Origin: Luteimonas chenhongjianii
GTDB taxonomy: Bacteria > Pseudomonadota > Gammaproteobacteria > Xanthomonadales > Xanthomonadaceae
Direction of reading: 5' to 3'
DNA: 64,000 bases
Assembly: GCF_002327105.1 (NCBI RefSeq)
Contig: NZ_CP023406.1
Span: forward strand, 806,001 to 870,000
Made by a program: the position numbers and the translations under genes. This document shows, piece by piece, positions 5,106 through 50,146 of the stretch. Position 1 is the stretch's first letter; the number at the start of each line of letters is the position of its first letter. The notes under the pieces are model-generated. The model did no database searches. It was not told the DNA's origin and saw only the letters and a program-made list of their open reading frames with translations.

Positions 5106-6005
5106 TCACTGGGCCTGCGGCGCCGGCTCCGCGTCCTGCGCCTGCTGCGCGGACGGGTCGGTTGCCGGCACCGGCTGGTTCTCGGGCATCGTCGCAGGCG
5201 CCGGCGTGGCCGCGGCCTGGGCCTCGATCGCCGCCAGCATGGCCGGGTCCGGGCGATGGTGCAGGCCCTGCATGTAGCTGGCCAGGGCCTCGATTTCCTC
5301 GTCGCTCAGCTGCCTGGCCACCGAGGCCATGACATCGAACAGATGGCGGTTGTCCTCGAGGGTCTGGCCTTCGCGATAGGTGTAGAGCCGGGCCGCGCTG
5401 TACCAGGCCTGCTGGCCACCGACATGCGGGTAGGCCGGGCCCGGATTGCCACTGCCGGCTGGGCCGTGACAGGCCATGCACGCCGGGATGCCGCGTTCGG
5501 TATTGCCGCTGCGGAACAGCGTCTGTCCGATCTCGTAGAACTTCATGCCCGCGTAGGGGCCACTCTCGACCACGGCATCGTCGGCGATGCCGGCGCCGCT
5601 GGACTGCTGGGCGTAATGCGCGCCCAGGTCGCGCATGTCCTGCGCACTGAGCGGCATCGCATACGGCTGCATGATCGGGCTCTGCCGCTGGCCGCTCTTG
5701 AACAGCGCCAGCTGGTGGGCGACATAGCGCTCGTTCTGCCCGGCGATGCGCGGATACAGCGAGGGGTCGGCGTCGGCATTGCCGTCCAGTCCGTGGCAGG
5801 CCGCGCAGGTGCCGGCGAGCTGGGCGCCGCGCTGGGCATCGCCATAGGTCGCCTCGGCCAGCTCGGCCACGGCATTGTCGTTGAGATCCCGGGTTTCGAC
5901 CGGGGGCGCGTCGGGCAACGGTTGAACCGTGGACTGCGCGAACGCGACAGCGCCCACGGCCAGAACCACAAGACCGGCGATACCAAAAGCACGAGCGTGG
6001 CGCAT
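5106..6005 (-). CDS. Cytochrome c4, di-haem
   Basis: Periplasmic electron carrier of 299 residues with an N-terminal signal peptide (IAGLVVLAVGAVAFAQS) and two class I cytochrome c domains. Each has a haem attachment site, CAACH in the first and CMACH in the second, with later Met ligands probable in MPLSAQDM and DVMASV. It passes electrons to terminal oxidases, most often the cbb3 type. The C-terminus after the second domain is a low-complexity Ala/Pro/Gln-rich tail of about 50 residues that is not part of the usual c4 fold. It is transcribed with the two dsbA genes and diverges from engB, an arrangement I associate with Xanthomonadaceae. Confidence 0.92.
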   Translation of the reverse strand: MRHARAFGIAGLVVLAVGAVAFAQSTVQPLPDAPPVETRDLNDNAVAELAEATYGDAQRGAQLAGTCAACHGLDGNADADPSLYPRIAGQNERYVAHQLALFKSGQRQSPIMQPYAMPLSAQDMRDLGAHYAQQSSGAGIADDAVVESGPYAGMKFYEIGQTLFRSGNTERGIPACMACHGPAGSGNPGPAYPHVGGQQAWYSAARLYTYREGQTLEDNRHLFDVMASVARQLSDEEIEALASYMQGLHHRPDPAMLAAIEAQAAATPAPATMPENQPVPATDPSAQQAQDAEPAPQAQ

Positions 6006-6138
6006 TGCTGGGCTCCGAGAGCTTCGATGCCGCGTCCAGCCGATGCCGGGCGCAAGTCCCCCGGATTATGTTGGCCTGCACCGGGCGGGTCAAACCGCGC
6101 GGCGGGCAGTCCGGCGCCGGTCGTGCCAAGCTATCGCC

Positions 6139-7622: not shown

Positions 7623-8987
7623 TTGTCCAGCCCCAGCCATACCGCCGACACCCCGATCACCGACCGCGCGACGCTCGTCGAGGTGCTTGCCTCAGGCGAG
7701 AAGCCGCGCGCCGACTGGCGCATCGGCACCGAGCACGAGAAGTTCGGCTTCCGCTTCGACGACCTGCGCGCGCCCACTTTCGATGGCGAGCGTGGCATCG
7801 AGGCGTTGTTGCGTGGGCTCACCCGCTTCGGCTGGGAACCCGTGAACGAGAACGGCCGCACGATCGCCCTGCTCAAGGACGCGGCCTCGGTGACCCTGGA
7901 GCCGGCCGGCCAGCTGGAACTCTCCGGCGCGCCACTGAAGACGATCCACGAGACCTGCGGCGAGGTCGGCGCGCACCTCTTCGAGGTCAAGAGCGTCGCC
8001 GACGAACTGCGCCTGGGATTCCTCGGCATGGGCTTCCAGCCCAAGTGGCGCCGCGACGAGATGCCGTGGATGCCCAAGGGCCGCTACAAAATCATGCGTG
8101 ACTACATGCCGAAGGTCGGCGACCTCGGCCTGGACATGATGACCCGCACCTGCACGGTCCAGGTCAACCTCGACTACGCGTCCGAAGCGGACATGGTCAG
8201 GAAGTTCCGGGTGTCGCTGGCGCTGCAGCCGGTGGCCACCGCGCTGTTCGCCGATTCGCCGTTCACCGAAGGCCGGCCGAACGGATACCTGAGCTACCGC
8301 TCGCAGATCTGGACCGACACCGATCCCGACCGCACCGGCATGCTGGATTTCGTGTTCGAGGACGGTTTCGGCTACGAGCGCTATGTCGACTACCTGCTCG
8401 ATGTGCCCATGTACTTCTCGTATCGCGACGGCGTCTACCACGACGCCGCCGGCCAGAGCTTCCGCGATTTCCTGCGCGGCGAACTGCCGGCGCTGCCGGG
8501 CCAGCTGCCGACGCTGCGCGACTGGTCGGACCACATGACCACCGCGTTCCCCGAGGTGCGGCTGAAGAAGTACCTGGAGATGCGCGGCGCCGACGGCGGC
8601 CCGTGGAACCGGTTGTGCGCGTTGCCTGCGTTCTGGGTGGGCCTGCTCTACGACGACACGGCGCTCGATGCGGCCTGGGATCTGGTGCGCGACTTCACGA
8701 TGGCCGAGCGCAACGCCCTGCGCGACGACGTGCCCAGGCTCGCGCTGAAGACGCCGTTCCGCGGCGGCACGCTGCGCGACCTCGCGATCGAGGCGCTGAA
8801 GATCTCCGCCGGTGGCCTGCAGCGCCGCGCCCAGCTCAATTCGAGCGGCCAGGACGAGCGTGTGTTCCTCGACACCCTGATCGAGATCGCCGAGTCGGGG
8901 CAGACGCCGGCCGAGCGCAAGCTCGAACTGTTCCACGGTCCCTGGCAAGGCGACATCGACCACGTGTTCCGCGAGTTCGCCTACTGA
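7623..8987 (+). CDS. gshA: Glutamate-cysteine ligase, plant/proteobacterial (GCS2) type
   Basis: First enzyme of glutathione synthesis: ATP-dependent joining of L-glutamate to L-cysteine. The product is 454 residues and intact, with the family segments [54 protein letters not shown] and [25 protein letters not shown]. This is the plant-like family also found in alpha- and some gammaproteobacteria, not the E. coli type. The start is taken as TTG 7623 ([11 protein letters not shown]), which lies downstream of the predicted promoter; an in-frame GTG at 7590 is the alternative. It fits a glutathione-using cell: a glutathione transferase and the formaldehyde/glutathione operon follow within 10 kb. 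Confidence 0.93.
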
Positions 8988-9017
8988 TCCGCTTGCGCGA
9001 CAGTCACGTGGGGCTTG

Positions 9018-9023
9018 TATAAC
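9018..9023 (+). promoter_or_regulatory. Possible -10 box of ppc
   Basis: TATAAC ends only eight bases before the ATG at 9032. A TTGCGC that could serve as -35 lies at 8993-8998 (19-base spacer). If used, the transcript would start at or next to the start codon, giving a leaderless or near-leaderless mRNA. Confidence 0.35.
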
Positions 9024-9031
9024 GTGACCGG

Positions 9032-11752: not shown

Positions 11753-11846
11753 GCGCGGCGCTGCGAAACGCTCAGCGGTCGCCGCGATTGCCGCCTGCGG
11801 CGCGTCCGGCGCACACTCGGCCGCTCTCCGAACGCGAGCACCGGCC

Positions 11847-12482
11847 GTGGCCAACGAAGCGCTTGTCCTCTATACCAACCCGATGTCGCGCGGCCGCATC
11901 GCGCGCTGGATGCTCGAGGAAGTCGGCCAGCCCTATCGTGTCGAGCTGACCGGTTACGACGGTGCCATGCGCGCCCCGGAGTTTCTCGCGCTCAACCCGA
12001 TGGGGAAGGTGCCGGTGCTGGTGCATGAAGGGGTCGTGGTCACCGAGACCGCGGCCATCTGCGCCTATCTCGCCGAGACCTTTCCGCAGGCCGGCCTGCT
12101 GCCCGCGCCGACCCCGGCCGCGCGCGCTGCCTACTACCGCTGGATGTTCTTCGCCGCCGGCCCGCTCGAGGCCGCGGTCTCGGCGAAAGCGCTCGACCTG
12201 CTGGCGCCGCCGGAGCGTGCGGGCACGGTCGGCTATGGCAGCTTCGAGCGTACCGTCGATACGCTTGAGCACGCGGCCGCATCCGCAGCGCCCTGGCTCA
12301 CCGGCGAGCGCTTCACCGCGGTGGACGTCTATGCCGGCGCGCAGGTCATCTGGGGGCAGCTGTTCAAGTCGCTGCCGCCGCGGCCCGCGTTCGTCGAATA
12401 CGCCGCCCGGCTGCAGGCGCGTCCTGCCTGGCAGCGCGCGACCGCGCTCGACGATGCGGCGATGCCCACGCCCGCGGATTGA
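11847..12482 (+). CDS. Glutathione S-transferase family protein
   Basis: A 211-residue protein with an N-terminal thioredoxin-like domain (LVLYTNPMSRGRIARWMLEE) containing the glutathione-binding cis-Pro strand KVPVLVHEG and the E-T pair (VVTETAAICAYLAE), then an all-helical C-terminal domain. Such enzymes conjugate or reduce with glutathione; the substrate cannot be deduced. The start is GTG 11847 (VANEALVLYTN); no ATG fits without running through the ppc 3' region. It begins 94 bases after ppc in the same direction. The Ser-Arg after the first strand (PMSRGR) is a plausible catalytic serine position. Confidence 0.88.
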   Translation: MANEALVLYTNPMSRGRIARWMLEEVGQPYRVELTGYDGAMRAPEFLALNPMGKVPVLVHEGVVVTETAAICAYLAETFPQAGLLPAPTPAARAAYYRWMFFAAGPLEAAVSAKALDLLAPPERAGTVGYGSFERTVDTLEHAAASAAPWLTGERFTAVDVYAGAQVIWGQLFKSLPPRPAFVEYAARLQARPAWQRATALDDAAMPTPAD

Positions 12483-12779
12483 TTGCAGCTCAGCGTCGCA
12501 GCATCGCTTGTTCGACACTGACGCCGACGTCGCCGCCCACAAGCACGACGATAGCTGGCGCGAGCGTGGCGGGCTCGAGGTCGGGTGGCGCCAGCGGGCT
12601 TCTGCCGCCTCGGTGGGCCACCCGGGCCATCGGCGAGCGGGGGCGCCTGCCGTTGCCGCAGGCGTCGAACAGCAGCATGGCGGCGCGGTATCGGCGTGCA
12701 GTGCCTGGCCCCCGAGTTCGCGCTCTGCTTTCACGGCGCGCCTGAGAGCATGCGGGTCTTCCCGGTACCGGAGACTCCC

Positions 12780-13013
12780 ATGGCACGCGACCTCCAACGC
12801 ACGACCGACCCGTCCGACACCTCGCCCGTGCATACCGCAAGCCTGCGCATCCGCGTCGGCAATGCCTCGGTCGACGGCGCGGTCTCGATCTCCACCCGCG
12901 GCCTGCTGGCCGTCGGCGGCCTGGTCTCGGGCATCCTGCTGTCGAGCGCGGTGATCGTGCTGGTGGCGACGCGCAAGGTGCCCAGGCACCGCTGGCTGCC
13001 CTGGGACCGCTGA
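12780..13013 (+). CDS. Small single-pass membrane protein, unknown
   Basis: A 77-residue protein with a soluble N-terminal half containing SLRIRVGNASVDGAVSIS, one hydrophobic helix (GLLAVGGLVSGILLSSAVIVLVA) and a short basic C-terminus. ATG 12780 is preceded by GGAGA eight bases upstream; an in-frame ATG at 12750 is possible. I do not recognise the family. The 297 bases before it, back to the glutathione transferase, hold no convincing gene. It lies 81 bases before xthA in the same direction. Confidence 0.6.
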   Translation: MARDLQRTTDPSDTSPVHTASLRIRVGNASVDGAVSISTRGLLAVGGLVSGILLSSAVIVLVATRKVPRHRWLPWDR

Positions 13014-13094
13014 GCGTTCCCGTCTGCTCCTGGCATTGCCGGGCACGCGGAAGCGACCGCCGAGGAACACGTCACCCGATCGGAGCCCGACCGC

Positions 13095-13910
13095 ATGGCC
13101 CCCCGAAAGCGCCACCTGAAGCTCGCCACCTTCAACGTCAACGGCATCGCCTCGCGGTTGCCGCACCTGCTCGAATGGCTGGCGCACGAGGCGCCGGACA
13201 TCGTCGCGTTGCAGGAGCTCAAGGCAACCGACGCCGCGTTCCCGGCTGCGGCCATCGAGGCGGCGGGCTATGGCGCGATCTGGCACGGCCAGTCGTCATG
13301 GAATGGCGTGGCGATCCTGGCCCGCGACGCGATACCGGTCGAGAACCGGCGCGGTCTGCCGGGCGACCCCACGGACACGCAGAGCCGCTACCTCGAGGCG
13401 GCGGCGCACGGCATTGTCGTCGGCGCGCTGTATCTGCCCAACGGCAATCCGCAGCCCGGTCCGAAGTTCGACTACAAGTTGCGCTGGATGGCGCGGCTGG
13501 CGAAACACGCGCGCACGCTGGTGGACCTGCCGCATCCGGTGGTGCTGCTCGGCGATTTCAACGTCATCCCGGACGACATCGACGTCTACGACCCCAAGGC
13601 ATGGCGCAAGGACGCGCTGATCCAGCCGGAGGTGCGCGAGGCCTATGCGGCGCTGCTCGCGCAGGGGTGGACCGACGCGCTGCGCGAGGTGTTCGGTGAC
13701 GAGGTGGTCTACACGTTCTGGGACTACTTCCGCCAGCATGCCGAGCGCGACCGCGGCCTGCGCATCGACCACATACTGCTCAATCCGGTGCTGGCCGGCG
13801 GGCTCCAGGAAGTGGGCGTCGATCGCTGGGTGCGGCTCCAGGACAAGGCCAGCGACCATGCGCCTACCTGGGCGCGGGTGGCGGTGCCGGTGGCCGGCAA
13901 GTCGCGCTGA
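13095..13910 (+). CDS. xthA: Exodeoxyribonuclease III
   Basis: Base-excision-repair AP endonuclease and 3'-5' exonuclease of 271 residues. Motifs visible in order are FNVNGIASRL (Asn), LQELKATD (metal Glu), the YLPNGNPQPGPKFDYKLRW region with the catalytic Tyr, LLGDFNVIPDDID, RIDHILLNP and KASDHAPTW with the catalytic His. Length and motif order are those of XthA/ExoA enzymes. Compared with the EEP-family gene at 2713-3498, this one keeps the full DNA-repair signature. Confidence 0.94.
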   Translation: MAPRKRHLKLATFNVNGIASRLPHLLEWLAHEAPDIVALQELKATDAAFPAAAIEAAGYGAIWHGQSSWNGVAILARDAIPVENRRGLPGDPTDTQSRYLEAAAHGIVVGALYLPNGNPQPGPKFDYKLRWMARLAKHARTLVDLPHPVVLLGDFNVIPDDIDVYDPKAWRKDALIQPEVREAYAALLAQGWTDALREVFGDEVVYTFWDYFRQHAERDRGLRIDHILLNPVLAGGLQEVGVDRWVRLQDKASDHAPTWARVAVPVAGKSR

Positions 13911-13948
13911 GCGGTCCGTATGCCGGCTGCGCATCGACACCTGCATGA

Positions 13949-15657
<1,709 letters not shown>

Positions 15658-15658
<1 letters not shown>

Positions 15659-15993
15659 TGGCCGGGCCTGTGGAGAAGTCCGCCCTGGCGGCGATGCTCG
15701 ACAGTGTCGAAGTCGGCCAGGAAGCGCGCGACGCGATCGAACGCCTGGACGAGCGGGACCTGCAGTTGATCGACGGGGCGATCCTCACCGCCCTCGACCG
15801 CGAATGGAAGCAGGCGGGCCTGATCACGGCCGGCGTGATGATCGCCGCGCCCGACGAATACGAAGAGCTTCCCGAAGCGTTCTACGCACTGCGTATCCGC
15901 GCGCTTGCCGAGGCGGCGCGCATCGAAACCCGCGGCGATCCGGCGGTGCTCAAGACCCTCCAGATCCGCCTTGCCGCACATGGCGAGCGCTGA
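15658..15993 (+). CDS. Small operon-coupled protein between frmA and fghA, unknown
   Basis: A 111-residue acidic, mostly helical protein (MAGPVEKSALAAMLDSVEV at the start) with no signal peptide, membrane segment or cysteine that I can see. Its ATG overlaps the frmA stop by one base and its own stop is one base before the fghA start, so it is made in step with both formaldehyde enzymes. I do not recognise a domain. The tight coupling suggests a role in formaldehyde detoxification, for example as an accessory or adaptor, but this is inference from position only. Confidence 0.8.
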
Positions 15994-15994
15994 C

Positions 15995-16837
15995 ATGGCG
16001 ATCGAACGCATCGAACATCGCGCCTGTTTCGGTGGCTGGCAGGATGTCTACGAACACGCCTCCGACACGCTCGACTGCACGATGCGTTTCGCGGTGTACC
16101 TGCCGCCACAGGCGGAGCGGGCGCGACTTCCGGTGCTGTACTGGCTGTCGGGCCTGACCTGCAACGAGCAGAACTTCATCACCAAGGCCGGCGCGCAGCG
16201 CTATGCCGCCGAGCACGGCGTGATCCTGGTCGCGCCCGATACCAGTCCGCGCGGCGACGACGTACCCGATGCCGATGGTTACGACCTCGGCAAGGGTGCC
16301 GGCTTCTATGTCGATGCCACGCAGCAGCCCTGGGCGACGCATTACCGCATGTACGACTACGTGGTGCGCGAGCTGCCGGCGCTGATCGAGGCCAACTTCC
16401 CGGTGACGGATGGGCGCGGCATCAGCGGGCATTCGATGGGCGGGCACGGGGCGCTGCTGATCGCCTTGCGCAATCCCGGGCGCTATCGCAGCGTGTCGGC
16501 GTTCTCGCCGATCGTCGCGCCCAGCCAGGTGCCGTGGGGCGAAAAGGCGCTGGGTGCCTACCTCGGCGACGACCGCAGCGCATGGGCCCAGTACGACGCC
16601 ACCGCGCTGATCGCCGATGCGCCCGAGCGGCTCGCGCTGCTGGTCGAGCAGGGCGAGGCCGACGAGTTCCTCGAAGGCCAGCTCAAGCCACAACTGCTGC
16701 GCGCCGCCTGCGAAGCGGCCGGCCATCCGCTCGAGCTGCGCATGCGGCCCGGCTACGATCACAGCTACTACTTCATCGCCAGCTTTATCGGCGAGCACAT
16801 CGAACATCACGCCCGGGCGCTGCGCGACGGGGGCTGA
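15995..16837 (+). CDS. fghA: S-formylglutathione hydrolase
   Basis: Second enzyme of glutathione-dependent formaldehyde oxidation; it cleaves S-formylglutathione to formate and glutathione. The 280-residue alpha/beta-hydrolase has the esterase-D signature: oxyanion region WLSGLTCNEQNFITKAG, nucleophile elbow GHSMGGHGAL with the catalytic Ser, Asp in EQGEADEF, and His in PGYDHSYYFI. The ATG at 15995 is one base after the stop of the small upstream gene. This completes a frmR-frmA-orf-fghA operon; formate dehydrogenase is not in the window. Confidence 0.96.
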   Translation: MAIERIEHRACFGGWQDVYEHASDTLDCTMRFAVYLPPQAERARLPVLYWLSGLTCNEQNFITKAGAQRYAAEHGVILVAPDTSPRGDDVPDADGYDLGKGAGFYVDATQQPWATHYRMYDYVVRELPALIEANFPVTDGRGISGHSMGGHGALLIALRNPGRYRSVSAFSPIVAPSQVPWGEKALGAYLGDDRSAWAQYDATALIADAPERLALLVEQGEADEFLEGQLKPQLLRAACEAAGHPLELRMRPGYDHSYYFIASFIGEHIEHHARALRDGG

Positions 16838-38100: not shown

Positions 38101-40791
<2,691 letters not shown>

Positions 40792-40814
40792 CGCGGATAC
40801 GAACTTGAAGCTAA

Positions 40815-40850
40815 ACAAGAAGGCGGCCATGGGCCGCCTTCTTGTTTTTT
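40815..40850 (+). terminator. Rho-independent terminator of aceE
   Basis: A perfect 14-bp stem (ACAAGAAGGCGGCC / GGCCGCCTTCTTGT) with an ATG triloop is followed by a T-run to 40850. The strongest terminator in the window. The left edge of the A+T-rich island begins within about 100 bases of it. Confidence 0.93.
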
Positions 40851-40955
40851 GGGGCTATCAGACAAGCTCAGTAGCTCCCTGAAGTGGCGCCTGTGCTCGG
40901 CGCCCGCCACTAAAACCGTGTTACATCGGCAAGACGTGACCGAACTGGAGTAGAA

Positions 40956-42404
40956 ATGCCTACAAGGACTGAACGCGGCGGGCCATTCCCTACCACCGTA
41001 AGCGCGGCGCCAAACAAAGATTTCTTCGTTCACATGCTCGTCCGAGACATCGAATTGGGCGACGCGATCCTCGATCTCTTAGACAACTGCGTCGATGGGA
41101 TCGTCAGGAGTGTTGGCGAAAGCCTGAAGAAAGATAAGCCTTACGCTAAGTATTACGCCGAAATTACTCTTTCGCCCAAAAAGTTCGAGATCCGTGACAA
41201 CTGCGGCGGCATACCGCTGGAGTTGGCAAAAACCAAGGCATTCCACATGGGGCGGCCCCCAGAGCATCGAGAAGATGCTGCTACCGTCGGAATGTATGGA
41301 ATAGGCATGAAAAGGGCGATCTTTAAGATCGGCCAGCGATGCGAAGTAATGTCAAAGAACAAAAATGACGCCTTTGAAGTTGAGATAACTAAGAAATGGC
41401 TTTCAGAGGCAGAAAACTGGGATCTTCCCATTCGTCGCCTTGACCCGAATGAGGTGACGATCGATGGAACCACCATCAGCATCGATGATCTAAAGCCTGA
41501 AGTGGCTAGGAAGTTTGACGAGAGCAAGGATGCGTTTGTAAGCGACTTCAGGACATTTGTGTCTCAGCATTACGCCCTGATCTTGCAAAAAGGTTTTCGC
41601 GTCAAAGTGAACGGGGTCAAGGTGGATCCAGTTTCCTTCGAGCTCCTGGGTGCTCCGTCTGTGCTAACCAAGAAAAGCGGGCCAAGACTGACGCCGTATC
41701 TTTTTCAAGGTGACATAGGAGGCGTCGACGTAACTGTGGCTGTAGGCCTCTATAGAAGGCTTCCAGACGAAGATGAAGTCGAGGCTGAGAAGGAGGAGAG
41801 GGCTAGTAAGGATGATGCCGGCTGGACAATTGTTTGTAACGACAGAATCGTCATTTACAAAGATAAAAGCAGGCTAACGGGATGGGGCGAAGCGGGTGTG
41901 CCGAGCTATCACGGTCAATTTATTGCAATTACCGGGATAGTAATTCTACATTCGAAGGACCTCTGGAAGCTCCCTCTCACAACGACAAAACGTGGAATAG
42001 ATCAGTCATCAGACACATACGCGATAGTCAAGGACTATATGCGTGAGGGGACTAAATATTTCACTAAGTTCACTAACAAGTGGAAAAAATTCCCGGACGA
42101 AGTGAAGAAAATATATAAGTCTTCGGAGTTGATGCCTCTTGACTCGATAATTGAGAGCATTCCGCCTTCTGCGAGGACTGTGGTTCGCGCTACTTCCAAA
42201 GGCGTCAATTCAGCTACTCGTTACGCTCCTGATTTGCCCCAGCCTGTAGCTGGGAGTCTAGATGCGCGAGTTTCATTCGTTAGACCTAAGTCCTCTATTT
42301 CTATTCTCGGAGAAGCGTTGTTCGACGATCCCGATGCGAAGCCTGCGGACGTGGGGGCTGCCTGCTTTGATCGTGTTCTTAGAGATATCGAGGATGTGAA
42401 ATGA
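40956..42404 (+). CDS. GHKL-fold ATPase (MORC/MutL/Hsp90-like), defence island
   Basis: A 482-residue protein with the Bergerat ATP-binding fold. The N-box is ILDLLDNCVDG (metal-binding Asn44), G1 is EIRDNCGGIP (Asp81, Gly84-85), and G2 is VGMYGIGMKRA (111-121); a transducer-like second domain with a basic loop LTTTKRGIDQ follows, as in MORC and MutL. It is preceded by GGAG seven bases before the ATG and overlaps the next gene by four bases. Codon use and base composition are A+T-richer than neighbours, so transfer is likely. GHKL ATPases of this kind are known companions of restriction-modification genes, where they may drive DNA translocation or looping. Exact function unknown. Confidence 0.85.
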   Translation: MPTRTERGGPFPTTVSAAPNKDFFVHMLVRDIELGDAILDLLDNCVDGIVRSVGESLKKDKPYAKYYAEITLSPKKFEIRDNCGGIPLELAKTKAFHMGRPPEHREDAATVGMYGIGMKRAIFKIGQRCEVMSKNKNDAFEVEITKKWLSEAENWDLPIRRLDPNEVTIDGTTISIDDLKPEVARKFDESKDAFVSDFRTFVSQHYALILQKGFRVKVNGVKVDPVSFELLGAPSVLTKKSGPRLTPYLFQGDIGGVDVTVAVGLYRRLPDEDEVEAEKEERASKDDAGWTIVCNDRIVIYKDKSRLTGWGEAGVPSYHGQFIAITGIVILHSKDLWKLPLTTTKRGIDQSSDTYAIVKDYMREGTKYFTKFTNKWKKFPDEVKKIYKSSELMPLDSIIESIPPSARTVVRATSKGVNSATRYAPDLPQPVAGSLDARVSFVRPKSSISILGEALFDDPDAKPADVGAACFDRVLRDIEDVK

Positions 42405-43408
42405 CAAAGCAGGCTTTCTCGTACGCGGTACGGCCTGGGAAATTTATCGATAGAGCTTTGTTCGTCGAGCTTCTGCAGCATGTGGACCGATATGTTTCAG
42501 TTAGGAGGGCGGCTTATATCGGGTTTGGTGGGCCGTGTTTGGAGGACCACCGGGTTATTCACAGCGCGTTCGGCATCAAGAAGCTCGTGTCAATTGAGCG
42601 GGACGGAGATATCTTTAGGCAGCAGATTTTCAATAAGCCGCTTCGTGAAATAAGATGCTTGAACATGGATGCAAAGGACTTCTTGGACGAGTTCGATGCC
42701 GAGATGGCTAGAGCAAAAATCGCGCCTAGTCTTAATAAGATCGCCTGGCTTGATTACGAGGCTCCTGGTGAACTAATGCATCAACTGCAGTCTCTCCAGG
42801 CGCTTATTAAGCTACTTGACGACGGCGATGTCGTTCGAATCACATTGAATGCAAACGCGTCGTCCTTGGGCGGTCACCAAGAAGGCGAAGCTGAGGAAGA
42901 TTTTCGTGCGAGACGAATGGAGAAGCTAATGGCTAGGCTGGGAGATTTCGCGCCTGAGGGAATCTCTGCCGAATCAACGCAACATGCTGGATATTACAAA
43001 GTCCTTCTCAGCGCTGTCCGGGTTGCCGCATCTCGCGCGACTGCAAACTCAGGCAGGACTTTCCTTCCATTGCTCACTGTGCATTATTCGGATGGACAAG
43101 CAATGCTGACGGTCTCTGGTGTCGTACTGCAGGACGGCAACGTGTCTAGCTTCTTGCGCGCCTCGGATTTAAAGAGTTGGGCTCACTACGCGGGCAACTG
43201 GGCTGAAGCGGAAAAAGTCTCTGAGGCACCTAGCTTGACGCTGAGGGAGCGCTTTCATTTCGATCAAGTCATGATGCGCTCGACCGGAAAATTGCCCTCA
43301 AGACTGGCGTACCTTGAAAAAATTCAAAGCTCGACTCCTAAGAAGTTGATCGCTCGCTACAGGAGATACCAGAGATTCTTTCCGAAATTCCAAAATGTGG
43401 ATATCTAG
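42401..43408 (+). CDS. Methyltransferase-like protein coupled to the GHKL ATPase
   Basis: A 335-residue protein whose first half has features of a class I SAM-binding fold: glycine-rich YIGFGGPCLEDH (residues 39-50) as motif I, VSIERD with Glu66 at the end of strand 2, LNMDAKDF (Asp90), and AWLDYEAPG (Asp118) as motif IV. The second half is unfamiliar. The motifs do not match the DPPY of N6/N4 DNA methyltransferases nor the PC of C5 enzymes, so the target is unknown: protein, RNA, a small molecule, or no catalysis. ATGA overlap with the ATPase gene argues for a functional pair. Its TAG stop lies within a CTAG that is also the stop of the opposite-strand vsr gene. Confidence 0.72.
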   Translation: MTKQAFSYAVRPGKFIDRALFVELLQHVDRYVSVRRAAYIGFGGPCLEDHRVIHSAFGIKKLVSIERDGDIFRQQIFNKPLREIRCLNMDAKDFLDEFDAEMARAKIAPSLNKIAWLDYEAPGELMHQLQSLQALIKLLDDGDVVRITLNANASSLGGHQEGEAEEDFRARRMEKLMARLGDFAPEGISAESTQHAGYYKVLLSAVRVAASRATANSGRTFLPLLTVHYSDGQAMLTVSGVVLQDGNVSSFLRASDLKSWAHYAGNWAEAEKVSEAPSLTLRERFHFDQVMMRSTGKLPSRLAYLEKIQSSTPKKLIARYRRYQRFFPKFQNVDI

Positions 43409-43821
43409 GATTTCGGGTAAAGCATTTTTCTTAGATTATCCTCGAGTTCGATGAGGTCCTGGGTCTGGCACTGCCAGATAGTTATTACTTCCCATCCAAG
43501 GCCGGCCAAAAGCTGATTGTTTCTTAAGTCGCGCGCAATATTTTTTCTAAACTTATCTTCCCAGAAAGAATTATTAGTTGAGGGGGCGCTGGCTTTTCGA
43601 CAGTTCTGGTGCCGATGCCAGAAGCATCCGTTGACAAATATTCACAGTCGCCGAGATGGGAAAACCAGATCGGGTGTTCCCGGAAGATCCTTTCGATGAA
43701 GTCTGAAGCGCGCGCCCAACCGGTGCGCGATCCTACGAACAATCAGCTCGGGTTTAGTATCTTTCGCCCGTATGGACCGCATAAGAGCACTTCTGGCTTC
43801 TTTTGATAATCGGTCTGTCAT
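43405..43821 (-). pseudogene. vsr: Vsr-type very-short-patch-repair endonuclease with one in-frame stop
   Basis: Reading the minus strand from ATG 43821 gives 138 sense codons apart from one TGA at 43642-43644 (codon 60). Both halves are in one frame and align with Vsr: MTDRLSKEARSALMRSIRAK, DTKPELIVRR, LPGTPDLVF with catalytic Asp51, then after the stop IFVNGCFWHRHQNC with the active-site/zinc His and Cys residues, FWEDKFRKNIARD and WEVITIWQCQ. In E. coli, Vsr nicks beside T:G mismatches made by deamination at Dcm sites, and here it lies divergently next to a C5 methyltransferase. The nonsense codon removes the FVxGCFWH part, so the gene should be dead unless the base is a sequencing error or the codon is read through. 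Confidence 0.88.
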
Positions 43822-43831
43822 AGCTAATAAT

Positions 43832-43843
43832 TAGTAATTACTA
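43832..43843. promoter_or_regulatory. Perfect 12-bp palindrome in the vsr-methyltransferase promoter region
   Basis: TAGTAATTACTA is self-complementary and sits in an A+T-rich 105-base space between the divergent vsr and C5 methyltransferase genes. It could be an operator for the methyltransferase or another regulator. No promoter boxes are certain. Confidence 0.35.
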
Positions 43844-43926
43844 GAGTCCTAAGTTGGGCGGCGTCGCTGCCACCGGCGGTGTTCCGCAGCCGAATCGCGT
43901 GAGCTGCACGATCGACAAAGGTTCAG

Positions 43927-45066
43927 ATGCCCGTTAGAATATTGCGGATGAACGAACCTAGCGTGATCGACCTCTTCTCCGGCGTGGGTGGCCTAAGCCT
44001 AGGGGCCGCGCGCGCTGGTTTCCGCGTCGTGGGCAGTGTCGAGCTGGACCCTATCGCTTCGGCTTCTCATGCCTTCAACTTCCCAGGAACGACCCATCTT
44101 CGTGACGACGTCGGAACACTTAGCGGCACGCGCCTGTTGGAACTTTGCGGCGTAAAGCCCGGAACGCTCGGGGGCCTTATCGGCGGCCCCCCCTGCCAGG
44201 GTTTCAGTCTCATTGGGAAGTGCGACGGTGACGACCCGCGCAATCTGTTGTTCGGTCAATTCTTCCGGCTTGTCGCTGAGACTCTGCCTGCCTTCTTCGT
44301 CGCGGAGAACGTTCTAGGGATTCTGAGCGAGTCAAATGCTCCTGTCATCGAGGCAGCTCTATCCAGCCTGCCTGCGAGATATCGCGTACTCAAGCCTATT
44401 AAAGTTAAGGCAAGTGAGTATGGAGCGCCGACGACTCGAACCCGTGTCTTCTTCGTGGGATTTGATCCTTCTCGAGTTAATGAGCTGACCAAAGAGTCAT
44501 TTGCTCCGGATCCAAAAATCGAACAGATCAGGGTGAAGCAGGCGTTGTTTGGCCTTCCAGATGTTAGTGCTGAGTGGCAACGCGAGGAACAGAGTTGGAG
44601 GACTGTCAAAGCGCTAGGAGATGGTGCTTTTGCAGATCGTGTAAGAGGTCATATTCCTACGGGCGTCGGCGATCCCGACTCCTTAAAGCGTGCTGCTAAA
44701 CGAAAGATTTCTGGATTTCTTGGTACTCGACACAGCGCCGCCACCGTATCTCGGTTCGAGATGCTTGCGCCCGGAGAAGTGGACTCTGTGTACCGTTCTC
44801 CGCGACTCGATCCCAAGGGCTTCTGTCCCACGTTAAGAGCCGGCACGAATACAGACAAGGGAAGTTTTCAAGCAGTGAGACCGATTCACCCTAAGAAGCC
44901 TCGTGTCATCTCGCCGCGAGAAGCTGCGAGGCTCCAAGGTTTCCCGGATTGGTTCGTGTTTCACCATACAAAGTGGCACGCATTCCGCCAGATTGGAAAC
45001 AGCGTTAGCCCGATCGTAGCGGAAAGACTCCTGCGTAAAATTTGCGAATCAATGGAAGCGGGTTGA
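43927..45066 (+). CDS. C5-cytosine DNA methyltransferase
   Basis: A 379-residue type II-like modification enzyme that transfers a methyl group from SAM to cytosine C5. Motif I is VIDLFSGVGGLSLGAARAGF, motif IV GGPPCQGFS with catalytic Cys90, motif VI FFVAENVLGI, motif VIII TRTRVFFVGF, the variable target-recognition region about 180-290, motif IX RVISPREAARLQGFPDWF and motif X RQIGNSVSPIVAERLL. All are intact. AAAGG about seven bases before ATG 43927 supports that start. It is divergent from a vsr gene, the usual pairing for cytosine methyltransferases. Recognition sequence unknown. A+T-rich codon use indicates acquisition. Confidence 0.95.
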   Translation: MPVRILRMNEPSVIDLFSGVGGLSLGAARAGFRVVGSVELDPIASASHAFNFPGTTHLRDDVGTLSGTRLLELCGVKPGTLGGLIGGPPCQGFSLIGKCDGDDPRNLLFGQFFRLVAETLPAFFVAENVLGILSESNAPVIEAALSSLPARYRVLKPIKVKASEYGAPTTRTRVFFVGFDPSRVNELTKESFAPDPKIEQIRVKQALFGLPDVSAEWQREEQSWRTVKALGDGAFADRVRGHIPTGVGDPDSLKRAAKRKISGFLGTRHSAATVSRFEMLAPGEVDSVYRSPRLDPKGFCPTLRAGTNTDKGSFQAVRPIHPKKPRVISPREAARLQGFPDWFVFHHTKWHAFRQIGNSVSPIVAERLLRKICESMEAG

Positions 45067-45079
45067 ACGGTGAATAGTC

Positions 45080-45172
45080 ATGCTAAGACGGGTGGCTGAA
45101 ATCATTGGCTTGGCGCTCGGAGGTAATTCCAGCGAGCCAATGGTTCAATACTGGAGTGACAGGCGCACGTGA
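45080..45172 (+). CDS. Possible 30-residue ORF coupled to the truncated endonuclease
   Basis: MLRRVAEIIGLALGGNSSEP followed by ten more residues to TGA 45170-45172. The stop overlaps the GTG start of the next frame as GTGA, a typical coupling arrangement. It could be a short leader peptide or the tail of a lost gene. No Shine-Dalgarno sequence is clear. Confidence 0.3.
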   Translation: MLRRVAEIIGLALGGNSSEPMVQYWSDRRT

Positions 45173-45506
45173 GATCGTTTCGGGTCGGGGAAGTCTATCG
45201 TTATGCGCGTCCGGCCATGCCCGAAGCGCCGGTCATCGATGGCATATCGAACTTTCATTTCGTGGTTTGCGCGAAGGGGCGTCCATCTCTACAGCTCGAA
45301 CGCGGTATAAACGCGCCCGCTTCTACTCGAGCGGCTGATGGCCACAGAACCGCCGCAGTTCTTTTGTCAAGCAATGAGAACAAGCGTGGCTCTGTCGAAA
45401 ATCCTTGGCATGACACTATCGCTTCAGACGAAGGGTTCGCTAGGTGCTTTGGGGACAACAAGACACCAAATTTGGATCCTGGCCATGCGATCGGAAATCG
45501 CAGCGC
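45169..45506 (+). pseudogene. Truncated restriction-endonuclease-like gene, N-terminal part only
   Basis: About 113 codons from GTG 45169. The start FRVGEVYRY, the core NFHFVVCAKG, and VENPWHDTIASDEGFARCFG with GDNKTPNLDPG then GN resemble the N-terminal, base-modification-sensing domain seen in AspBHI-like and related restriction enzymes (family recalled from sequence pattern, not from a search). The similarity ends near 45505, exactly where TAACGGGGTCAGGT begins; beyond that the frame runs 33 codons into high-G+C sequence unlike a nuclease. The C-terminal catalytic domain is absent. Position behind the C5 methyltransferase fits a lost restriction partner. Confidence 0.6.
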
Positions 45507-45520
45507 TAACGGGGTCAGGT
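45507..45520. repeat. 14-bp junction motif, copy 1
   Basis: TAACGGGGTCAGGT, identical to 56323-56336. Both copies lie within a few bases of the point where a gene fragment loses homology. It resembles the GGGGTCAGGTTCACTT-type ends seen near REP/RAYT-like elements in this bacterial group (from memory; unverified). Confidence 0.5.
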
Positions 45521-45585
45521 TCACTTCGAGAAGTGGGGATGGCAGCTGGGAGAGGGCGAGGCGAAGCCGAGCGGGCCGACCAGAG

Positions 45586-47547
45586 CTAGCGAGGCGCCAG
45601 TAGCGGCGTAAGCGTGTCCGGCCTGCCCGCCACCCGAGCGAGGTGCGGGTAGCGCAGCGTTCCGCGGTAAGGGATCGTCCGCTCGACGCGTTCGCCGTCC
45701 TGCTCGACGAGCAACTGGATGGGTGATCGTTGTGCATCGCGGACCGCGGCCACGAGGCGTTCGCCGTCGAAGGGTTGGCCGTGCACGCTCACGATCCGGG
45801 TGCCCGGCGCCAGGCCGGCGGCGAAGGCCGGGCCGTTCCAGTTCACCGCCCTCACCACGCCCTTGTCGTTCACCGCCAGGCCGATGGAGTAGGACAGGTC
45901 GATGACGCCGTCCTCGTCCTGCTGTTGCTGGAACGCGGCGGTGGGGGTGTCGGTATAGGCCAGCTGCCAGCCGTGCCGCACCAGGCCCACCGTGGTGTCG
46001 AGCTCTTCGTGGCCGTCTACCCAGGCGCGCAGTTCGCCCGCCCAGTCGTGCGGGGCGATGGCGTCGAGCGCGGCGCACAGGGATTCGAACGTGTAGGTAC
46101 GCGCGGGTGCATCGGCCGATGGCACGGCGAAGAACACGCGTGCGAAGTCGTCCATGCCCTGGCGGCCATCGCTGCGCTCGCGCAGCAGCGCGTCCACCCA
46201 CAGCCACAGCAGCACGCCTTCGCGGTAGTAGTCCTTGCGGCGCTGCCAGTCGCGCCACGGCACGGCCCTTTGCAGCATGAAGGCCGGGTAGCGCACATCG
46301 TCCGACAGGCTGCGCCAGGCGCGGCCCGGTCGGTTGGCGACTTCGGCGGCATCGAGCGCGAGCTGGTCGAGGGTGTCCTGTCGGCTGCGCAGCCCGGCGC
46401 GCGCGGCCAGGATGCGGCCCCAGAATTCGGTCTGCCCTTCGTACACCCACAGCAGGCTGCCGCCCTGCGGCATGTTGGGCGTGGGGGTCCACAGATCGGC
46501 GGGCACGCGGAAGAGGCCGTTCCAGGCGTGCACCAGCTCGTGCGGGATGATGTCGCGGCCGTTGAGCTGGGCCGGCCAGTCGCGGAAATAGTTCGACGGC
46601 AGCGAAATCTCGCTGGAGCTGCGGTGCTCGGCGCCGCCGGTCGATGCATCGTCCTCCAGTCGCGCCAGGAATTCATAGCGCTCGAAGGGCGCGGGCCCGA
46701 AGACCGCGGCGACCTGTTCGAGCATGCGTCCGAGTTCCGCCTTCCGCTCGGGCGGCAGGTCGAGATCTTCGGCGCGGCTGGCCATGAGGTTGAGGGTGAT
46801 CGGCGCATCGCCCGCAGAGTCGAGCGGGATCCTGCTGAGGTGGCGGGCCGCATGGAGCGGCGAATCGAGCAGGGTGTCGAGCGGAACCGGCGCCAGCTCG
46901 ATCGTCCCGGCCTGCATGGCCTCGACATCCAGCGACGACACCGGCGCCAGCCCGGGTGGCAGCGTGGCGCTGGGCCTCACCATGAGGTTGCGGGCGTACC
47001 AGCCGGCGGGATACAGCACCAGGCGATGCCATGGCACGACCACCAAGTCAGGGTGCAGCGCGTCGGCGCCCACGATGATCTGGTAGCTCGCCTCGAGCGC
47101 TCGTGCGCCAGCGGGAATGTCCAGTTCGAAGGCGTGCGCATCGACCGGGTGGCGCCGCCAGGGCAGCGGCTGGCCATCGGCCGACAGCGACAGCCCGGCG
47201 AGATTGCTGACGCTGAGGCTGGGGCCGTGGCTGGTGGACTCCCAGCGCGGGTACAGCAGCATGGTCGGGCCGGCGGCCTGGACGGGGATGCGCAGGCGCA
47301 CATTGAAGATCCTGCGCGCGACATCGGTCGCGTCCACATGTAGCTCGACGGTGCCGGCGAACGCGCGGTCGATCGGTTCCGGAATGGGCGCGGCGACCAA
47401 CGCCTGGACAGGCCGCTCCGACGTTGCGGCGAGCACTGGATGCGTGGCGCCCAACGCGGCGGCCAGTGCCAGGGCAAGGGCGGCGCCGGGGCGGCACTTC
47501 AAGGCGGTGAAGCGGGCAACGGCGGGTCGGTCGGGGGATGGCGACAC
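45586..47547 (-). CDS. M61-family aminopeptidase with PDZ domain, secreted
   Basis: A zinc metallopeptidase of 653 residues. A signal peptide (ALALALAAALGATHPVLA) precedes an N-terminal beta-rich domain, the gluzincin domain with HELVHAWN (zinc ligands His336 and His340, catalytic Glu337) and a downstream Glu ligand in YEGQTEFW, and a C-terminal PDZ domain with the loop GLAVNDKGVVRAVNWNGPAF. Family members such as Sphingomonas glycyl aminopeptidase remove N-terminal Gly/Ala in the periplasm. The start is GTG 47547; no ATG fits. The stop is 60-80 bases from the endonuclease fragment, marking the right edge of the island. Confidence 0.88.
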   Translation of the reverse strand: MSPSPDRPAVARFTALKCRPGAALALALAAALGATHPVLAATSERPVQALVAAPIPEPIDRAFAGTVELHVDATDVARRIFNVRLRIPVQAAGPTMLLYPRWESTSHGPSLSVSNLAGLSLSADGQPLPWRRHPVDAHAFELDIPAGARALEASYQIIVGADALHPDLVVVPWHRLVLYPAGWYARNLMVRPSATLPPGLAPVSSLDVEAMQAGTIELAPVPLDTLLDSPLHAARHLSRIPLDSAGDAPITLNLMASRAEDLDLPPERKAELGRMLEQVAAVFGPAPFERYEFLARLEDDASTGGAEHRSSSEISLPSNYFRDWPAQLNGRDIIPHELVHAWNGLFRVPADLWTPTPNMPQGGSLLWVYEGQTEFWGRILAARAGLRSRQDTLDQLALDAAEVANRPGRAWRSLSDDVRYPAFMLQRAVPWRDWQRRKDYYREGVLLWLWVDALLRERSDGRQGMDDFARVFFAVPSADAPARTYTFESLCAALDAIAPHDWAGELRAWVDGHEELDTTVGLVRHGWQLAYTDTPTAAFQQQQDEDGVIDLSYSIGLAVNDKGVVRAVNWNGPAFAAGLAPGTRIVSVHGQPFDGERLVAAVRDAQRSPIQLLVEQDGERVERTIPYRGTLRYPHLARVAGRPDTLTPLLAPR

Positions 47548-47786
47548 GTGGCGGACTCGTAGTCGGGGACTGGGGCTGGAGAGGCGAAGCGTGCGCTGGG
47601 TTCCATTCCAGGCTGTGGCGCGGGACGCCGGCACGCTGCGCAGGTTGCCACTTCCCTGGCGTCGACGCTGCAACATGCGCGCGGAGCCGCAACCCGGGCG
47701 AGGGGCGGCGTCCAACTGGCGACGAGGGGAGGCTCGCTCCGTTCGACGTGGATGACACCAAGGCCGCCAGTCTTGCCTCGGCTGTC

Positions 47787-48725
47787 TCAAAGCATCACGA
47801 AGAGCGCGATGGGAATGAGCAGCCTGGAGCGGTTGGATTGGCTTGCGGCTCGGTGCGCCAGGAGCGTCGCACGAAAGCTGACCGGGTCGAGCCGCCAATG
47901 CGTGCCGACCGCACCGGGCAGCACGAACATGCGCGGCGATTGCCTGAAGTCGAACACGCGGTAGAGATGGAATTGTTCGGCGTGGGTGTCCGAGAACGCC
48001 GCCTCGTTCGGCGAGATGAAGAAAGGCGTTTCGGCGAGGTACGCCGTGGTCTTGACCTCGATGTAGCGCTCGCGGCCATCGGTCTCGAACGAGAGGATGT
48101 CGTGGCCCAGGCCATCACCGCGGGTCTGCGAGACATGCTCGACACGATCGGCCAATCCGCGCGCGCCCAGTGCGTGCAGGCGCCGCGCTTCGTACTCCAG
48201 CACGAGCGCTTCGCCCGCGAGGCCGAGCGAGCGGTTGGCCGCTTCGCGCTGCAGGTAGTCGCGCTTGATCGGCACGACGGTCGACCAGTCCTTCCGCGGC
48301 TCGCGAAGTTTGCGTGTCGCGCGCAGCGGCACATCGACGACGAATGCGTCATAGCTGTCGAGCAGCGGTGTTTCCACGGCACTTTGCACGTTTCGCAACG
48401 CCGCCTCGTCGAGGACGCGGTCTGCAGCGAGCGCGCGGCCGACCGGGATCACCAGATCGCTCTGGTAGTTGAAGCGGGGCAGATAGCCGCGCAGCTGCGG
48501 CGCGTCGTAGACCTCCATGAGCACGGCGCTGATGTTGGCGTGCTTGAACTCGATGGCGCCGCGACTGCGGGCGGGGATCCGGGACTGCAGGCGGCGATTG
48601 TGCTCCGCCTTGTTGAGCGTCTGGCCGAGCTCCTGCGTCCTCAGCATCTGGAAGTAGGTGGCGACCGTCGCCTCGATCTCGGCATCGGTCCAGGGAGATC
48701 CGGTTTCGCCGTCCACGTTATCCAA
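47787..48725 (-). CDS. DUF3883 domain protein, putative nuclease-like
   Basis: A 312-residue protein. The N-terminal part is unknown (WTDAEIEATVATYFQML onward). The C-terminal DUF3883 region carries NRSLGLAGEALVLEYEARRL and GDGLGHDILSFETDGRERY then IEVKTT; the D...ExK arrangement is compatible with a PD-(D/E)xK nuclease fold, as proposed for this domain. DUF3883 proteins are frequent in restriction and defence islands. The TTG at 48725 has GGAG six bases upstream and is preferred; GTG 48716 is an alternative. A decayed second copy of its C-terminal half lies at about 50226-50480. Confidence 0.75.
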   Translation of the reverse strand: MDNVDGETGSPWTDAEIEATVATYFQMLRTQELGQTLNKAEHNRRLQSRIPARSRGAIEFKHANISAVLMEVYDAPQLRGYLPRFNYQSDLVIPVGRALAADRVLDEAALRNVQSAVETPLLDSYDAFVVDVPLRATRKLREPRKDWSTVVPIKRDYLQREAANRSLGLAGEALVLEYEARRLHALGARGLADRVEHVSQTRGDGLGHDILSFETDGRERYIEVKTTAYLAETPFFISPNEAAFSDTHAEQFHLYRVFDFRQSPRMFVLPGAVGTHWRLDPVSFRATLLAHRAASQSNRSRLLIPIALFVML

Positions 48726-48851
48726 TGCGCGCGCTCCTGCGGGGTCGCACCAGGATAGCGGGGTCGCCCGCGTGACGCCCTGCAGGGGATGCGCGTCCCC
48801 GCTTCCCGCGGCGCACGCCACGCGGCAGAATCGCGGCGAAGGGGAGGGCAC

Positions 48852-48965
48852 ATGGACAAGCCGTATTACCTGATCGATTTCGAGAACGTGCAGCCCAGGG
48901 CGCTCGCGCGTGCCAGCGCAAGCTCGCGCAGGCCCTGCAGGTACGGGCCTAATCAACACTCGTGA
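48852..48965 (+). pseudogene. PIN/NYN-domain protein stub
   Basis: MDKPYYLIDFENVQPRAL is the exact style of N-terminus of bacterial PIN-like/NYN RNase proteins (strand 1 with the catalytic Asp in IDFEN). After 18 residues the sequence loses similarity and stops at codon 38. A strong GGGGAGGG precedes the ATG by a few bases, so the promoter-proximal end was once a functional gene. The rest has been deleted. Confidence 0.6.
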
Positions 48966-49154
48966 AGAAGCAGGGCTGGCGACCGGTGCCTCGCTGGACC
49001 ACCTGTTGAGGAATAGCCGGCAGATCGACGCGGGGGCGGCAGGCCTCAGCACGCTGGGGCGCTGGGGCGTCAGCGTTGCATCAAAGCGAAAGGCGCAACG
49101 GCAGGCGGAGCCGGTATTGTCGTTGACTTCCTGAAGCCAAATGCGGGGGGCAAC

Positions 49155-49538
49155 ATGATCGGTTTTAGGTGCGTCGTTGTATCTGCGTTTTCGCTACTCG
49201 GATGTTCATGCGCCGCAGGAGCGGTGGGGTGTGACGTGTTGCTTGTTAATGAGGCGGCGGGGCCTGCGCCTATGCAACGGCTGTCAGGCTTGGTGGAGGA
49301 TGCACTGGCTGAAGAGCCCAGAGTGAAGTTGATCAGACATGATGAGGTTGGCGATACAGTAATCAGGTTTATTGATTTGGATATGCAAAGACTTGCCGAC
49401 GGTTCTTACTCGGATAACGGGGTCTTCGAGTATTCAATAATCGAAGATGGCTATGAGCGGGCTATGGTTTGTGAGGGGTCTCCCGATCGTTGCGCCCGGG
49501 AGGTCTTGCTGGCGGCAAAGTCCGCGTGCAGTTGGTAG
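49155..49538 (+). CDS. Hypothetical exported protein
   Basis: A 127-residue protein with an N-terminal signal (VVVSAFSLLGCSCAAGAVG), possibly a lipoprotein because LLGCS resembles a lipobox. The mature part is acidic with a Cys pair near the C-terminus (MVCEGSPDRCARE; final CSW). A GGGGG run lies before the ATG. Base composition is A+T-richer than the genome core. I recognise no family. Confidence 0.6.
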   Translation: MIGFRCVVVSAFSLLGCSCAAGAVGCDVLLVNEAAGPAPMQRLSGLVEDALAEEPRVKLIRHDEVGDTVIRFIDLDMQRLADGSYSDNGVFEYSIIEDGYERAMVCEGSPDRCAREVLLAAKSACSW

Positions 49539-49747
49539 GGGCGGGGTCAGGAGATGAGGTGCGTGCGCACTTCGATGTCGGTGATGCCTTCCGGCATTTT
49601 CAGAGCCAAGCCGCCAACCGAGAACCGGCCTCTTCTGGAATTCCGCGACGTGCAGAATGGTCACGGGGACATTTGGCTCAACTCATTTAGGGCGGTGCCC
49701 GCGAGAGGTGCTGTGCCTCAGGCGTTCCAGGAGTGGAGCTGTGATTT

Positions 49748-50146
49748 ATGAAAGATTTTTTGAGAAACTTCTCCCTTACGGTTCTTGCCGCCTTTTTGGC
49801 AATTGCGATCGGAATTTTTATCATCGAATCAGTTGGGTATCCGGTTGGGGCACCGTTCGTAACCGGTAGCGATCCCGTGGTGGACCAGGTGATGGTAGGT
49901 CATCAAAAATCCTCCGCAAAGTATTTGGCGGAGCTAAATATTAGTAGAGAAGATCATCTGAGGTTTAAGCTTGAAGCTGGATCTTGGTTGATCTCAATTC
50001 TTCTGGCGCTCGCGTTTGTGATAGCGCGTTCAAGGCTGCTCGCGATCCTTGTTTGTAGTTTGTTCGCTGCAACAATTATCTATCTGGAAGGGCTGAGCCC
50101 GCTGCAGTCGGTGTCGGTTTGGCTGGTGTGGTGGCGGGGGCGATAA
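49748..50146 (+). CDS. Hypothetical membrane protein
   Basis: A 132-residue protein with one N-terminal helix (FSLTVLAAFLAIAIGIFIIE), a soluble loop of about 50 residues and two C-terminal helices (SWLISILLALAFVIA; LLAILVCSLFAATIIYL). GGAG lies 12 bases before the ATG. A+T-rich compared with neighbours, like the gene at 49155, so both may have arrived together. No family recognised. Confidence 0.6.
   Translation: MKDFLRNFSLTVLAAFLAIAIGIFIIESVGYPVGAPFVTGSDPVVDQVMVGHQKSSAKYLAELNISREDHLRFKLEAGSWLISILLALAFVIARSRLLAILVCSLFAATIIYLEGLSPLQSVSVWLVWWRGR

Follow-up and report, generated by a model that had tools for sequence, protein, structure and literature searches.

Our computational analysis of a 64,000 nucleotide (nt) stretch of DNA from Luteimonas chenhongjianii (contig NZ_CP023406.1, hereafter the window) implies that three genes of an island located behind aceE probably form an unnamed defence cassette, which would distinguish self from non-self and has no obvious DNA-cutting enzyme. 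The three genes encode a predicted prokaryotic MORC-type GHKL ATPase, a putative methyltransferase of the PF20553 family that we call MT35, and a C5 cytosine DNA methyltransferase (C5). The neighbourhood counts place the association of the ATPase-MT35 pair with C5 beyond chance. The reading that we favour, and to which we would give an even chance, is that of a mobile anti-phage or anti-plasmid cassette with the logic of restriction-modification (R-M), in which MORC and MT35 are the restricting arm and have no nuclease of their own.

The linkage of the three genes was investigated in loci that were collected via one MT35 peptide pattern, and not via the ATPase or C5, from IMG/VR (44 loci), GTDB (26 loci), database records and genomes of the family and phylum. 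Profiles that we built ourselves found MT35 in 88 loci (the window is included and a few contigs occur twice), and clustering at 70% identity gave 41 MT35 lineages, each of which was scored by its best-equipped locus. The ATPase gene adjoins the MT35 gene, directly upstream, in 39 of the 41 lineages; of the two others, L006 is cut by a contig end and L088 has partial matches at a distance of about 3 kb from each other. C5 is found within 5 kb of MT35 in 36/41 lineages, an intact Vsr endonuclease in 16/41 and a second, longer GHKL protein in 5/41. Clustering at 90% identity (n = 58) leads to 56 lineages with an adjacent ATPase, 50 with C5, 18 with Vsr and 6 with the second longer GHKL protein. 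An earlier description of the island, made from the nucleotide letters only (the sequence-only reading), had proposed a two-gene system: the pair is indeed conserved, but the recurrent unit is the ATPase-MT35-C5 trio; Vsr and the restriction enzyme are not constant members of it, and both are broken in the window.

The ATPase and MT35 open reading frames (ORFs) overlap in 66 of 73 adjacent pairs (the window's own pair is counted twice), and the distances of the two proteins over 47 dereplicated loci are correlated with a Spearman coefficient of 0.876, while none of 2000 permutations was as high. PF20553 is present in five of the 398 genomes of a phylum sample (the Luteimonas genome included), and all five genes adjoin the five best ATPase matches; three weaker ATPase matches in this sample are without PF20553, and one of them is a longer GHKL protein beside C5. 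The ratio of nonsynonymous to synonymous substitution rates (omega) was 0.02-0.07 in 11 of 18 gene comparisons, namely those with a computable synonymous divergence (dS); the 7 comparisons with uncomputable dS (-1) were excluded from this range, and the values are rough because dS is 1.2-4.2. As for C5, 36 of 47 cassette proteins, that of the window among them, belong to one subfamily (50% single linkage), which includes loci labelled Kiritimatiellae, Dehalococcoidia and Planctomycetes (L067, L068 and L069). That C5 is generally exchanged freely was rejected on this ground, although the C5 proteins of L055 and L057 are only 35% identical next to 72% identical ATPases and 69% identical MT35 proteins. 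The locus L105 keeps the five-gene order of the window with an intact restriction enzyme; its C5 is 80% identical to that of the window, the ATPase 35% and MT35 27%. Since these identities diverge so much, the histories of the pair and of the C5/enzyme block are separate, although the two share one architecture. In the Rhodoferax locus L053 (8616-15709) two MORC-MT35 pairs are located face to face on opposite strands, with MT35 scores of 410 and 142.

The window ATPase is a prokaryotic MORC protein, a relative of the MORC proteins of animals and plants, according to its predicted fold and a published motif. Residues 18-389 of the predicted model have a VIA match in the MORC3 ATPase, and the residues D40, N44, D81, G85, G115, G117 and K345 are invariant in 75/75 alignment rows. 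Prokaryotic MORC proteins have been delimited by GHKL ATP-binding motifs together with an S5 domain (Iyer et al., 2008), and both were found in the window ATPase. The MORC S5 motif GhXhhpXXRhl appears there as GWTIVCNDRIV at position 289; it is in register in 73 of the 75 ATPase rows and occurred in 2 of 1500 shuffled sequences. The motif is also present in 6/6 longer GHKL proteins of neighbouring loci, and thus it does not single out the cassette ATPase subgroup. Longer GHKL proteins with the MORC motif, 546-610 amino acids (aa) in length, stand near the cassettes L049, L052, L056, L057, L058 and L064, and a relative of them in L109 stands beside C5 without MT35. In PHROGs the ATPase corresponds to phrog_20521, which is listed as being of unknown function.

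MT35 of the window scores 239.2 bits against PF20553 (cut-off 27), and all 78 members of the MT35 alignment match this family. Its AlphaFold2 model (pLDDT 91.9) shows the class I S-adenosylmethionine (SAM) methyltransferase fold, and the likely SAM-site residues are kept: G43 and D118 in 78/78 members, E66 as 73 E and 5 D of 78. From this predicted fold and these residues we regard MT35 as a predicted class I SAM methyltransferase. Within the trio it is the most divergent member (median identity 0.335, compared to 0.437 and 0.505), and a search for close relatives of it in the genus to which genome G154 belongs (91 genomes) gave three matches, at 24-33% identity. The PHROGs family that it matches (phrog_19983, E 1.3e-64) is again listed as of unknown function. 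The full-length structural nearest neighbour of the model is the tRNA methyltransferase Trm1, and it is only this fold that suggests an RNA resembling tRNA as a possible substrate. The likeness to Trm1 is structural only, as the window protein has no TRM (PF02005) match at E up to 10; a search with the TRM profile gave partial matches in 27/249 genomes, two of them above the cut-off. No nuclease match was found in the window ATPase or MT35, where the fold search hardly covers the residues after about 430 of the ATPase and after about 270 of MT35 (the Trm1 rows excepted), so that the absence of a nuclease is not shown for these parts.

The sequence-only reading could not name a system for the pair, and our searches lead to the same conclusion. 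No PADLOC family matched the window ATPase or MT35 at E up to 1, and no NCBIfam match came near its cut-off; among the proteins of the window and of the Escherichia coli locus L087 the sole PADLOC match was C5, and MT35 had none in the window, L087, L003 or L105. We found no named system that matches the trio in the parts of the literature covered, while the tables of DefensePredictor (PMC13092281) and of Rousset et al. (2022; PMC9122126) may list it; in the figure legends of the former, 'MTase' and 'HATPase' appear, with no further explanation, among the systems that were predicted or validated. The term PF20553 returned no papers, and the MORC-PF20553-C5 trio was not found in the texts that our search covered, though it may already have been mentioned as a candidate without a name. 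Prokaryotic MORC operons that combine a GHKL and S5 ATPase with C5 methylases and Vsr have been in print since 2008, and a minority of the MORC neighbourhoods in that survey have methylases or restriction enzymes but no helicase (PMC2292703). Our cassette shares with those operons the MORC motif of the ATPase and the vicinity of C5 methylases and Vsr. However, the text of that paper, as distinct from its figures, names no PF20553-type partner and leaves its X1-X3 domains unnamed. MORC-linked R-M is therefore already known, and the MORC-PF20553-C5 trio is a variant of it that we did not find in print.

Several known systems come close to the cassette. The HEF_HK/Response_reg_2 paraMORC pairs, as described in the text of PMC8011034, likewise have a HATPase_c_3 ATPase with a conserved partner and C5 and Vsr nearby, but their partner is receiver-like and their ATPase usually adds HEF_HK and HATPase_c; no Pfam match to HEF_HK, HATPase_c or receiver-like domains was found in the window pair at E up to 1. 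The BbrUII/HgiDII profile (NF050001) weakly matches the GHKL region (E 0.0006 in the window and 2.7e-7 in the phage PfAC20), and M.HgiDII and M.BbrUII are 5-methylcytosine methyltransferases (PMC5867850). The profile has 659 positions compared to the 482 residues of the window ATPase, which has MT35 as a partner, and membership was rejected, the score being 18.5 bits where the cut-off is 550; the longer GHKL proteins of L056, L057 and L109 have no NF050001 match. In MZA, MzaB is a MORC/MutL-like ATPase of an anti-phage system, and weak MzaB matches were seen in the window (NCBIfam, E 0.029), PfAC20 (PADLOC, E 0.0011) and L105 (PADLOC, E 0.0041), but with 12.7 bits against a cut-off of 850 we rejected this membership too. 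VcSduA, a Shedu protein with a GHKL domain, shares a GHKL ATPase hypothesised to control an effector; its effector is a fused nuclease, whereas the cassette has a separate methyltransferase-fold protein (PMC12137116). As for type II R-M, the window holds a DNA methyltransferase (PF00145), and of the cognate restriction endonuclease only a truncated head. That the pair belongs to an R-M system together with the AspBHI-like enzyme was rejected, the head being found in two loci besides the window.

The sequence-only reading took the genes for a defence island, and the homologue surroundings that we examined agree with this: they comprise defence spots of prophages, islands that also hold R-M genes, and a DISARM locus. 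In the E. coli P2-like prophages L087 and L090 the trio is located between a portal gene and a gpA-type replication endonuclease gene; the gpA-gpQ site of P2 is described as an antiviral hotspot that holds old and tin (PMC9122126). Among 5426 E. coli genomes the L011 cassette is at least 80% covered in 47 and the L087 pair likewise in 47, while any match to the L087 pair occurs in 220, of which 173 are under 80% coverage; one of the genomes with a short match (L089) has all three genes in phage-like surroundings. In the E. coli loci L087, L089 and L090 the bare trio stands among phage genes, with no restriction enzyme annotated. In the Pf phage PfAC20 (L003, PP058144) the trio is ORF1-3; the authors who described this phage regard the cytosine methyltransferase as an incomplete system (PMC11878078). 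PfAC20 has a second annotated DNA cytosine methyltransferase, ORF9 (5438-6082), besides the cassette C5 encoded by ORF3. On a Microvirga plasmid the pair is inside a DISARM locus, between an MmeI-like gene and drmA. Neither PfAC20 nor the surroundings of the three E. coli cassettes have an annotated DISARM gene, and the pair as a general part of DISARM was rejected, as one such locus was seen.

How such a cassette would work can be proposed as follows. C5 would mark the resident DNA, and the MORC ATPase would act as an ATP-gated dimer, with which MT35, its near-constant partner, may form a complex and so join the restricting arm. Incoming DNA without the C5 mark would be engaged by MORC-MT35 and blocked, through clamping and through the transfer of a methyl group to nucleic acid by MT35, and not through a nuclease of the pair's own. 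The sequence-only reading had likewise suggested that the ATPase could sense unmodified DNA and that its partner could be the effector, and we infer the same. R-M logic is favoured because a DNA methyltransferase usually accompanies the pair; L106, which is without C5, has an N6/N4 methylase in the neighbouring gene cluster. Arrest without cleavage is plausible because animal MORC proteins entrap or compact DNA (PMC8277788, PMC12216690). A more specific form of the idea is nuclease-free restriction, in which a MORC clamp and a Trm1-like methyltransferase would silence or disable DNA without the C5 mark; it would be a bacterial, phage-spread counterpart of the MORC silencing of invading DNA, with the 'orphan' C5 as the self-mark. 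We put this form forward tentatively, as possible and not as the probable case.

If the favoured reading is true, one system unites the trio of P2-like and other E. coli phage regions, the Pf filamentous phage and the islands of several phyla, and the C5 of PfAC20, published as incomplete R-M, becomes a part of a complete system. Bacterial MORC ATPases, which Iyer et al. propose as the source of the eukaryotic ones, would also gain a compact model that is easy to work with in a laboratory host.

Several observations weigh against this reading. No phage or plasmid phenotype of the cassette was found in the literature. The distances of the two pair proteins correlate weakly with those of C5 (0.233 and 0.188, with 23 and 89 of 2000 permutations as high), which is below the expectation from strict specificity matching. 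Five of the 41 lineages are without C5 within 5 kb: two of them (L059/L073 and L066) are three Parabeggiatoa loci with C5 matches elsewhere in their genomes, two (L101/L103 and L004) have a divergent C5 only, at 72-113 bits, and L106 has no C5 match in its genome (G360) and an N6/N4 DNA methylase in a divergent neighbouring gene cluster. ATPase homologues number at least 3962 compared to at least 740 for MT35, with 8000 scored for each, and therefore some ATPases may lack MT35; a single-sequence MT35 search gave 36/4341. Finally, MT35 subgroups without the search peptide are under-sampled, because the loci were fetched by one peptide pattern. The L106 arrangement, in which the pair is divergent from a cluster of a SNF2-type helicase, a NOV_C protein and the N6/N4 DNA methylase (8780-16352), is possibly a second architecture.

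One could argue that the trio acts by abortive infection: MORC would sense foreign or unmodified DNA and free MT35, which would methylate tRNA or other RNA and halt translation, while C5 keeps the system silent. The likeness of the fold to Trm1 points in this direction. However, the window protein has neither the TRM match mentioned above nor a PDB sequence match, both at E up to 10, and the small-molecule methyltransferases COMT, EgtD and CysG are in the same fold-match lists as Trm1, where rows with Z differing by less than 1 count as tied; a shared fold shows no substrate. We consider abortive infection rather unlikely.

A MutL-like action, in which MORC-MT35 would recognise unmodified DNA and recruit a nuclease, be it Vsr, a linked restriction enzyme or one of the host, would agree with the lineages that have an intact Vsr and with the intact restriction enzymes that adjoin some cassettes (RE_AspBHI_N plus Mrr_cat in L105, NotI in L055, MvaI_BcnI in L070), and joint action of MORC and nucleases was proposed by Iyer et al. 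(2008; PMC2292703). The three E. coli loci nevertheless hold the trio only, between phage genes, and the two nuclease genes of the window island are broken, its other three genes being open. Thus such recruitment appears distinctly unlikely to us. We see an equally small chance that the cassette is for modification only, so that C5 and MT35 would decorate the DNA of the element with the ATPase as a loader, and a prophage would be protected from host restriction or regulated. The methyltransferases of phages frequently occur as orphans with a protective role against restriction (PMC7549136), and the trio does have two methyltransferase-fold proteins and no nuclease, but it also stands in chromosomal islands with R-M genes, in DISARM and in the P2 hotspot with exclusion systems, and simple marking would presumably need no ATP-driven MORC. 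That the island is a decaying type II R-M system (C5, the AspBHI-like enzyme and Vsr) with two hitchhiking genes is highly improbable, since the two broken genes out of five and the gene order shared with L105 and its intact enzyme are set against the low L105 identities of ATPase and MT35 next to a well kept C5, and against an enzyme head with homologues in only two loci while C5 is near the pair in most lineages.

The island in the window begins shortly after aceE, whose stop is at 40791, with the ATPase ORF starting about 165 nt downstream. All five pieces are located where the sequence-only reading had placed them (Table 1), and the base composition differs from the flanks as it had claimed (0.49-0.56 compared to about 0.62-0.70): the guanine plus cytosine (GC) content is 0.497, 0.490, 0.508 and 0.556 per 1-kb step across 41-45 kb, 0.642-0.670 over the 3 kb before the island, 0.618, 0.704 and 0.696 over the 3 kb after it, and mostly 0.64-0.74 in the window outside it. 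The claimed translational coupling of a GHKL ATPase of MORC/Hsp90 fold to an unusual methyltransferase holds, as the MT35 start overlaps the ATPase stop by 4 nt (ATGA). C5 has the PPCQGFS and ENV motifs. Vsr was correctly recognised, but it is not an intact gene: its two pieces match PF03852 at the consecutive profile positions 1-58 (E 2.2e-18) and 60-71 (E 0.0033), and according to the frame reading a single TGA splits them. The reported head of a restriction-like enzyme matches the start of RE_AspBHI_N only (24.7 bits, cut-off 27). Its approximately 112 codons are 73% and 65% identical over 112 residues to L105 and L104, and because the head aligns over this length to the intact 428-aa enzyme (RE_AspBHI_N and Mrr_cat) of the related genome L105, the restriction enzyme is truncated in the window.

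Table 1. Genes and gene pieces of the island, with positions in the window
Feature	Position	Strand	Profile evidence
Prokaryotic MORC-type GHKL ATPase (predicted), 482 aa, intact	40956..42404	+	HATPase_c_3, E 1.3e-8
MT35, PF20553 'putative O-methyltransferase', 335 aa, intact	42401..43408	+	PF20553, E 8.9e-71, profile 1-308/309
Vsr endonuclease pseudogene	43408..43821	-	PF03852 matches; in-frame TGA 43642-43644
C5 cytosine DNA methyltransferase, 379 aa, intact	43927..45066	+	PF00145, E 1.8e-53
Truncated restriction endonuclease head, RE_AspBHI_N type	45169..45504	+	PF18062, E 1.9e-5, profile 9-67/185

The stretch at the end of aceE was matched in 41/41 genomes of the same genus, some of the matches being short and chance-like, and 30 loci were kept, each of which extends beyond aceE by about 1.5 kb. 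The homology ends within about 60 nt on either side of the aceE stop in the 29 of these loci that come from other genomes (two of them stop at contig ends). A single-sequence MT35 search of 61 genomes (the Luteimonas genome and 60 relatives) matched this genome only, and 10 of 395 family genomes, this one included, have a PF20553 gene. The breaks at the aceE end and this rarity among relatives therefore indicate that the island was inserted sporadically behind aceE. A comparison of 40771-40960 with 45001-48400 found no exact direct repeat of at least 13 nt. ARAGORN detected no tRNA gene in the 64-kb window, thus the insertion is not at a detected tRNA. In L128 and L132 the homology resumes at 47.9 kb of the window, inside a NOV_C gene, and the spot behind aceE is variable, because NOV_C-like DNA lies within about 0.4 kb of aceE in these two loci. 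The NOV_C/DUF3883-type gene of the window (47787-49052, minus strand; PF13020, E 2.5e-21) is beyond the island and an M61 peptidase gene; the NOV_C/DUF3883 domain is frequent in restriction operons. A second GC dip is seen at 49001-50000 of the window, with a GC content of 0.546 and a GC skew of +0.216.

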